DNA from: a virus
Virus record (IMG/VR): IMGVR_UViG_3300010354_000045
Coordinates: 62,001 to 126,000 of that record
Reading direction: 5' to 3' (one strand)
Length of the DNA stretch: 64,000 nucleotides
A program made the translations under genes and the position numbers. The notes below the pieces were generated by a model that saw nothing but the letters and a program-made list of their open reading frames with translations, did not search any database and was not told the DNA's origin. Every line of letters starts with the position of its first letter. The first letter of the stretch is position 1. This document shows positions 11,101 to 14,100 of the stretch, in pieces.

Positions 11101-14100
11101 AAAATTTACAGACGGTGATTGTGTTTGGTGCACCTTTGATAAAGATTCTTGGAATGTTTATAGATATACAAATACAAATTATGTAGTGAAAGATGCAGTA
11201 TATAATTCTTCTCTCAAACAAGTTATATTAACCATTGACGGTGTTGTTAATCAAATAGTTGGCGATTATCTAGGAATAGATAATGTCACTGGGTTTAGCG
11301 GGTTTTACAAAGTTGAATCTGTTACTGTTAATACAATAAACTTGTCTACTACAAAATCAGTATCAATTGCCAGTCCGTTCATCGAACAAAATAAAATTAT
11401 TATTTCTAAGTTTGTATCTCAACGTGTTTCTACAATTGACAACATTGATTCTGCAATAAGTAGTAAGTTAAAAACAGGTGATTTAATATGGGCCGACGCT
11501 CACTCGTCTAATTTTTGGACCACATGGGAATACAAGGCTGTTTATAGTTCAGGAGCCTTATCTGCTCCAGAATTTACTGATAGATTAAATTTTGGTAAAA
11601 ATATTTCTGTTAATACTGCCGGAACAGTCCTTGCATCTCAAGTAAGCTCGGGGCAAGTATATGTTTTTAACAAAGCAGGTATTTCAACACCTTGGATACA
11701 AAAACAAGTATTGTCTAAAATTTATTCTGGCACTACGTCTGCAATAGACATAGCAACGGTGTTATCAATAAGTCCTCGGGGCACTTGGTTAGTTACTGGC
11801 ACACCAACAGCTAGTCAAGTTAAAACAACAACATTGGGAACATTAGTAATTGCTAGTGAAACAGGTTCTAATAATTTGCTAAACAATCACGGAGCAGTCT
11901 CAATATATCAACGAGATGTTAACGGTTTTTACACTTTAATAGCAACTGTATTAAATTCTACACCAACAGATGGTGAAAAATTTGGAAGCAGTATTGTAGT
12001 TTCGGAGGAAGTAATTTATATTGGGGCTCCTGGAACAAACAAAGTATGCAAATTAATTTATAACGGAACTAGTTGGAATTATAGCACAGTAATTTCAGGA
12101 ACAGGAACTAACTTTGGATATAAGTTGGCTCTCAGCTACGATGTATCTACATTAGCAGTATCGTCATTTAATCAAGATTCTGGAGTGGTAAGAGTTTATA
12201 AAAATGACACTTTAGAGGATACTATTAGTACTCCTAGCAGTACTTTACAAAATAAATTTGGTTTAAGTATAACATTAAATGATGACGGCTCATATATTGC
12301 AATTGCTGATCCTGAAGATGAATCAGCAAATTCTGTATTAGTCAATCAAGGTGCAGTTTTTGCATATAGATACAACACAATAACATCGTCGTACGAATTA
12401 TATCAACGGCTAGTAAATTATAATACAGAAGGTGCTCAGTTTTTTGGAACTACTATAAGTTTTATGAATAATGATAAAACTTTAGTAATTTATAGTTCTA
12501 ACGCTGACAGTAGATCCTTTACTATATTTGATGCGAATTCAACTACATTTGATTCAGAACAAACTGAATTTGTAGAAAGACAACCAGATAGTGGCAGAGT
12601 TGATATCTACGACATGTATTTGACTAAATGGGTTTACAGTGAAAGTCTAAATAATCCTGGCAATAATACTGACGGTTTTGCAGTAGGTTTTTCTGTAGCG
12701 TCAAATAATATTATTTTAGGATCTCCTTATTCAATTACACAAGGATTGATTACTGGAAAAATTTATTCATACACAAAAAATGTTGGCGACTATTCTTGGA
12801 ATAAAAAACATTACGAAATTAGTAAGCCTGACGTATCAAAAATAAAAAGAGTTTTCTTATATAATAAGCGAGAAAACAATCTTTTAGATTACTTAGATAC
12901 CGTTGATCCTAATCAAGGAAAAATACCGGGTATTGCAGAAAAAGAAATAAAATATAAAACTTTTTATGATCCTGCCATTTACTCTTTAGGAACATCTTTA
13001 GTCAACGTTGACGAAGGTGCTGCTTGGGGTAAAGAACAAGTTGGTGCCTTATGGTGGGATTTAAGATCTGCAAAATTTATAAACAGTTATGATGCTGATG
13101 TTGTTTATAGAAATAATACATGGAATACGTTAGCAGTTGGTGCAAGTGTTGATGTATATGAATGGGTACAATCTACATTAAAACCATCAGAGTGGGATAA
13201 TCAATCAGATACTGAATCTGGAATTGCTTTGGGAATTAGTGGAACGTCTCTATACGGTGATTCTGTTTATGCTACTTCTATAAAATATGACAACATAAGT
13301 AAATCTAAAAAAACAACTTATTACTATTGGGTAAAAAATAAAAAAACTGTGCCTAACACATTAGGTAGATCTATGTCGGCCAGTGATGTATCTCTTTTAA
13401 TTTCTAATCCTAGAGGACAAGGATATAGACATATTGCATTTACAGGATTAAACTCGTTTAGTTTAGTTAATGTTAAAGAATTAGTAGTAGACAAAGATAC
13501 AATATTGTCTGTAGAATATTGGACTTCAATAAAAACAGATCAAAACATACATACTCACTGGACAATCGTAAGTGAAGATACTGTTAATTTACCATCGTCA
13601 GTGGAACAAAAATGGTTTGATAGCCTTTGCGGAAAAGATTCGTATGGTAGATTAGTCCCCGATACTTCATTACCTCCTAAGTTAAAATATGGTATTGAAA
13701 ATAGACCTCGTCAGGGAATTTTTGTTAACAGATTTGAAGCATTAAAACAATTTATTGAAAAAACTAATATTGAATTACTTTCTAGACAAGTTATAGGAAA
13801 TAAAGATATTTCTCCATTAGAGGAATATGACAAAGAACCTTCGTTAGTATCAGGACATTATGATGTTTCCGTTTTAACAGATGCTGAACTTTCATTTACT
13901 AGTTTATCATCTTTTACAAAACCAGTATTATCTCCAATTATTTCTAATGGCAGAATAACTGGAATTGATATAATTTCTTCGGGTAGCGGATATGTTGTAG
14001 CACCATATTTAGATATTTTTGGATCAGGTACTGGTGCAGTAATTAGATCTAAAATTAATACAAAAGGACAGATTGTAGGCGTAGATATAATTTCTTCAGG

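Follow-up and report, generated by a model that had tools for sequence, protein, structure and literature searches.

It is already known that phages carry FG-GAP propellers. The Pfam family FG-GAP_2 (PF14312) has members in bacteria, phages and giant viruses (several of the giant viruses possess FG-GAP proteins), and its blade pattern is common to the propeller described here, which differs in that it forms a block inside a giant protein of the baseplate region. Integrin alpha subunits (alphaM, alphaL) share with our propeller the seven four-stranded blades and the FG/GAP-like motifs, and are its best fold match. The integrin alpha-I domain sits between blades 2 and 3; in relatives of our protein an extra domain is also found at blade 2, in the strand 2-3 loop of that blade rather than in the inter-blade linker. 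Among phages, gp131C of phiKZ (PDB 4GBF) is likewise seven-bladed, lies at the periphery of a myophage baseplate and is a suspected receptor-binding part (PMC4901313), although this likeness is one of description, and the propeller of gp131C is the C-terminal domain of a separate protein from another group of jumbo phages. The receptor-binding protein gp45 of phi11 has a five-bladed propeller with a putative GlcNAc cavity (PMC4901313). An integrin-like propeller "hemagglutinin", gp213, is present in the related jumbo phage AP-J-162 (PMC11242549), and Atu_ph07 likewise has one; these differ from our case as small separate proteins (375 aa) outside the giant chain. In phage Phosso, gene 108 (L084:3871-13185) encodes a separate giant protein that contains 24 or more FG-GAP_2 stretches (E 1.9e-174 for the examined part).

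Giant proteins directly after gp6 have been described as well. VrlC of pelagi- and cyanomyophages is such a protein and is said to replace gp7 (PMC7029224), and Synechococcus phage S-MbCM6 has a giant structural protein of 7022 aa, also directly after gp6, in which FG-GAP_2 (1.1e-43) adjoins a lectin-like Laminin_G_3 domain (L087:23001-25499). The conserved flanks of our propeller were not found in the examined part of the S-MbCM6 protein, which shares with our chain just one glycine-rich repeat-like segment. The giant protein of RaK2-type phages (RaK2, PBECO4, CBB_236) belongs to the same family as ours along most of the chain, and differs in being without the propeller. In open-licence papers on FG-GAP repeats in phages, we found no FG-GAP propeller described as a block that sets a clade apart, sits in the giant protein after gp6 and has a loop with recurrent inserts. 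An earlier reading of our locus from its sequence alone had called such a tail protein unusual; this holds insofar as we found no paper describing it, and does not hold insofar as an entire environmental phage clade has the propeller as a fixed feature and other phage proteins also contain FG-GAP_2 propellers.

The window, i.e., the whole stretch of 64,000 nucleotides analysed here, comes from an environmental viral record of 161,493 bases (IMGVR_UViG_3300010354_000045), of which it covers bases 62001-126000. Judging by sequence identity, the nearest isolated kin of the window phage are T4-superfamily jumbo phages: its DNA polymerase is 51% identical to that of Sinorhizobium phage Phosso and 47% to that of Agrobacterium phage Atu_ph07, while its gp6 is approx. 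37% identical to those of Phosso, Atu_ph07 and Pseudomonas phage PA5oct. The giant ORF is preceded on its 5' side by a gp5-like C-terminal part, a gp25-like gene and a gp6-like gene, and therefore occupies the position of T4 gene 7. The phrog_10938 profile matches the whole giant chain (1061.9 bits) and mostly skips the propeller. Alignment of four segments of the chain with seven T4 gp7 sequences by hhalign gave probabilities below 1%, the profiles being shallow. For the remainder of the chain, the solved-structure matches of note were just CBM5/12-type and tailspike, and other segments are repeat-like modules (CBM5/12-like, glycine-rich). Two homologues are known as virion proteins, namely PA5oct gp355, which carries an ESI-MS/MS note, and CBB_236 of phage CBB, found in the virion by MS with 21 peptides (PMC5259590). 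The giant protein would be a baseplate-associated virion protein, presumably present also in the virion of the window phage.

AlphaFold2 was run on residues 2040-2640 of the giant ORF, and DSSP on the resulting model (mean pLDDT 82.7, pTM 0.79; blades mostly above 90) gave seven groups of four strands, i.e., seven predicted antiparallel four-stranded blades (Table 1). The sequence-only reading had proposed a seven-bladed FG-GAP-like propeller inside this giant tail protein and had named modelling as the check beforehand; the model returned the seven blades with high confidence, and both fold matches and FG-GAP_2 agree with it. All of the blade motifs quoted at that time are present in the ORF, at approx. 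residues 2145-2530. The extent then given (11590-12750) was right in location and slightly too short at its boundaries: the domain takes in a leading strand ahead of blade 1, and an end at 12750 truncates the last blade, since blade 7 runs to 12814. The presence of the propeller in the giant protein is thus confirmed, and its predicted fold is well supported. The best fold match of the model is the integrin alphaM propeller (Z 30.4, rmsd 3.0, 342 residues), with an identity to the integrin alpha-subunit propeller of 13%; WD40 propellers follow close behind (CIAO1, Z 29.5; G-beta, Z circa 29), and since these scores are nearly tied, the fold by itself does not distinguish kinship with integrins from kinship with WD40 proteins. 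L019, a relative that carries inserts, was modelled independently (pLDDT 85.3) and also had an integrin at the top (alphaL, Z 29.1). Profiles of single blades detect their sister blades: the profile of blade 4 reaches 3e-8 on blade 5 and 5e-6 on blade 2, and none of 200 shuffles did better with it than approx. 8e-4.

Table 1. Coordinates of the giant protein, its predicted propeller and adjoining features (nucleotide positions of the window).
Feature	Residues	Nucleotides	Strand	Remark
Giant ORF	4599 aa	5156-18955	+	phrog_10938 family (virion structural protein); directly 3' of gp6
CBM5/12 module	1431-1460	9446-9535	+	
Weaker CBM5/12 copies		10376-10441 and 18464-18556	+	
Seven-bladed beta-propeller, FG-GAP_2-like	2131-2553	11546-12814	+	AlphaFold2 model, fold searches, Pfam
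Blade 1	2149-2186	11600-11713	+	DSSP on model
Blade 2	2202-2266	11759-11953	+	strand 2-3 loop is chief insert site in relatives
Insert site 1	2229/2230	11840-11845	+	blade 2, strand 2-3 loop; empty in window copy
Blade 3	2279-2314	11990-12097	+	DSSP on model
Insert site 2	2304/2305	12065-12070	+	blade 3, strand 3-4 loop; empty in window copy
Blade 4	2324-2358	12125-12229	+	DSSP on model
Blade 5	2371-2419	12266-12412	+	DSSP on model
Blade 6	2433-2497	12452-12646	+	DSSP on model
Blade 7	2511-2553	12686-12814	+	DSSP on model
Conserved C-flank	2560-2640	12833-13075	+	homologous in RaK2-type and Atu_ph07-type jumbo phages
Gene 3' of giant ORF		18959-20077		T4 gp9/10 N-terminal domain, then head-fibre repeats

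Through the conserved C-flank, 80 environmental relatives were gathered, 41 sequences entering the alignment (A1), which consists of environmental contigs without assigned hosts. A search of viral contigs with peptide patterns of the propeller only found no close relatives, probably because the propeller diverges too fast for such patterns. The conserved segments that flank the propeller (the anchors) recur in RaK2-type phages, PA5oct, SCTP-2, Vibrio phage 2.275.O, Atu_ph07 and Phosso. All ten RaK2-type records keep both anchors, at a distance that falls short of that in the window by 428-433 aa; this shortfall is the size of the propeller, and going by the anchored sequences RaK2-type phages are without one. 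The propeller profile was present in the slot of every examined environmental relative with both anchors, RaK2-type and Atu_ph07-type phages being the exceptions. The insertion of the propeller as a block, in one particular slot flanked by a conserved segment on either side, is well supported. Its bearers are environmental contigs only and fall on one side of one branch: in a tree of the flanks, with the propeller omitted, presence corresponds to one change (SH-aLRT 100), this being one quick unrooted tree with PA5oct and SCTP-2 on long branches. Because the tree is unrooted, it is compatible both with a gain by this clade and with a loss by the jumbo phages. The Atu_ph07 giant protein has an inter-anchor slot approx. 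900 aa longer than that of the window, with no FG-GAP match; roughly 900 aa of unassigned sequence (L086, circa residues 2280-3190) occupy the place of the propeller. Neither an FG-GAP match nor a profile hit was obtained in the slots of Atu_ph07 and Phosso, where a diverged propeller is possible.

Among close relatives the slot is 397 to 1100 aa long, mostly due to two places of insertion. At site 1, 33-137 aa are carried by 25 of the 40 relatives, mostly as a module of 43-56 aa with a CBM5/12 pattern (one such module scored 20.9 bits against PF02839, which is below the cut-off), and in L074, L077, L113 and L142 approx. 450-600 aa interrupt the propeller profile there. At site 2, 33/40 relatives carry at least 69 aa, in most cases a repeat-like module of circa 70 aa. 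By the canonical topology the two sites would lie on opposite faces of the propeller. To hypothesize, and only tentatively, the propeller could be a platform for the display of domains, with the blade-2 loop as a recurrent docking site where the choice of insert (none, CBM5/12-like or several hundred residues) tunes the binding of the baseplate, comparable to the alpha-I domain in some integrins.

The propeller is the lowest-identity long central stretch of the chain (a short connector just ahead is also low), with an identity to relatives of 0.30-0.40 compared with approx. 0.5-0.65 in the neighbouring segments, and it evolves about twice as fast as these. In ten close pairs its dN/dS was 0.08-0.16, i.e., under purifying selection throughout (below 0.17), and in 10/10 pairs it was above that of segments 1500-2030 and 2560-3520; in two pairs, L049/L057 (tied) and L007/L010, segment 3530-4500 equalled or exceeded it. 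The idea that the propeller is a host-range cassette, hypervariable or swapped, was considered and rejected, since close pairs diverge steadily, with no mosaic jumps and no positive selection. Taken together, these rates and the lack of swapping indicate an inherited, constrained yet faster-evolving part of the protein.

As to function, we are somewhat inclined to believe that the propeller is a baseplate-borne platform for adhesion and display which binds a cell-surface ligand. It would form a rigid disc that stands out from the baseplate and whose exposed loops bind the ligand, most likely a surface glycan; the carbohydrate-binding-like modules in blade 2 of the relatives would also bind a cell-surface ligand, and such a grip could help to keep the baseplate on the cell ahead of tail contraction. 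The position directly after gp6 and the homologues found by MS as virion proteins speak for adhesion, as do the precedents of phiKZ gp131C and phi11 gp45, while the low identity, the higher dN/dS, the repeated inserts in one loop and the CBM5/12 modules elsewhere in the chain are hints of surface binding. The faster evolution and the CBM-like inserts are consistent with the binding of a surface ligand; that this would be a host surface protein, as the earlier reading suggested, does not follow from them. Against adhesion, selection is purifying and domains are not swapped in close pairs, unlike in many tail-fibre tips, and the faster change may equally reflect relaxed constraint. Moreover, the window copy is without the CBM-like inserts of its relatives, there are more conventional candidates for a fibre among the downstream ORFs (such as 23199-25391, which has a tail collar domain), and beta-propellers often act as protein-protein scaffolds as well.

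The main rival explanation, to which we give a real but minor chance, is that the propeller is an internal scaffold which docks another protein of the baseplate or fibre (in the wedge or at a fibre attachment point) and has no contact with the host. Typical scaffolds for protein interaction are WD40 and Kelch propellers, the WD40/G-beta folds are within circa 1.5 Z of the integrins, and a Kelch propeller protein is a virion component of CBB (PMC5259590); vertical inheritance and the retention of the propeller in all relatives of the clade would also suit a scaffold. However, the propeller diverges more than any other long central stretch of the chain and accepts inserts of 43 to approx. 600 aa in one loop, which is easier to understand in an exposed domain than in a buried one, and RaK2-type phages manage without the propeller. 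It seems unlikely that the propeller is just a module of length or spacing, with no specific partner and kept because its loss would upset the folding of the giant chain, since a dN/dS of approx. 0.1 means real constraint and RaK2-type phages have a working chain without it, even though the repeat-like modules elsewhere and the variable slot length would agree with a spacer.

The origin of the propeller is a separate matter, and the name FG-GAP_2-like is preferred here. On the window fragment, Pfam FG-GAP_2 gives 21.3 bits (E = 3.2e-4) and does not reach the curated cut-off of 23 bits; orthologous propellers are above it (L007 40.9, L033 39.1, L019 38.2 and L074 31.7 bits), and 38 of the 41 aligned sequences match at E up to 0.1 (best 3.8e-14). 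FG and GAP-like motifs are seen in several blades. The definition of integrin-type propellers (PMC3192720) expects seven blades of four antiparallel strands, as in the model, a calcium-binding loop in several blades and, as the defining feature of the blades, a Cage motif in each. The Cage motif occurs nowhere in the window propeller, is missing altogether from 46/68 propellers and is found at most twice in one, even with a relaxed scan that accepts hydrophobic letters where that definition specifies aromatic ones; the calcium-binding DxDxDG loop was found in none of the 68. A strict integrin-type assignment is therefore rejected, and we name the propeller FG-GAP_2-like instead; the earlier wording "integrin-alpha pattern" cannot be kept, given also that WD40 is nearly equal in fold. 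That the propeller is of WD40 type, its FG-GAP likeness being convergent, would be compatible with either function and would fit the close fold scores, the missing strict motifs and the WD40 or EML profile matches of some relatives, yet we hold it to be improbable, since WD40 matches only 8 of 41 members as against 38 for FG-GAP_2, integrin alpha-L is the one significant match of the A1 profile among PDB sequences (8.7e-4), and integrins are the top fold rows for both models (window and L019).

If the adhesion explanation is true, the uncultivated T4-related phages of an entire branch have an adhesion platform integrated in a baseplate protein, independently of tail fibres, and this platform arose by gaining (or keeping) a single domain at a defined place; it would also be a caution against reading giant proteins in the gp7 position as purely structural. 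The clean presence or absence between the clade and RaK2-type phages, together with a single loop with variable inserts, lets one ask what a baseplate gains from a propeller.

Several other genes of the window deserve mention. The gene 3' of the giant ORF may be a fibre attachment point because of its gp9/10 N-terminal domain and head-fibre repeats. It is followed, two genes after the giant protein and within the tail gene cluster, by a subtilase-family protease (20082-21761; Peptidase_S8, 1.9e-30). Four adjacent tail ORFs at 23199-30278 have a related N-terminal segment (first against fourth, 33% over 263 aa) and are probably a tandem family of fibre proteins, one of them with the tail collar domain. 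On the minus strand, the region 43584-53321 encodes GTP cyclohydrolase I and a radical SAM protein similar in appearance to QueE, while the ORF at 51768-53321 (minus strand) resembles, by eye and with no Pfam match, a DNA transglycosylase (DpdA-like); these genes are possibly a pathway of 7-deazaguanine DNA modification. A protein of the IMP dehydrogenase/GMP reductase family (1.3e-69) is encoded at 45019-46050, and a ferritin-like (Dps-type) protein (8.5e-18) at 62819-63253, both on the minus strand.
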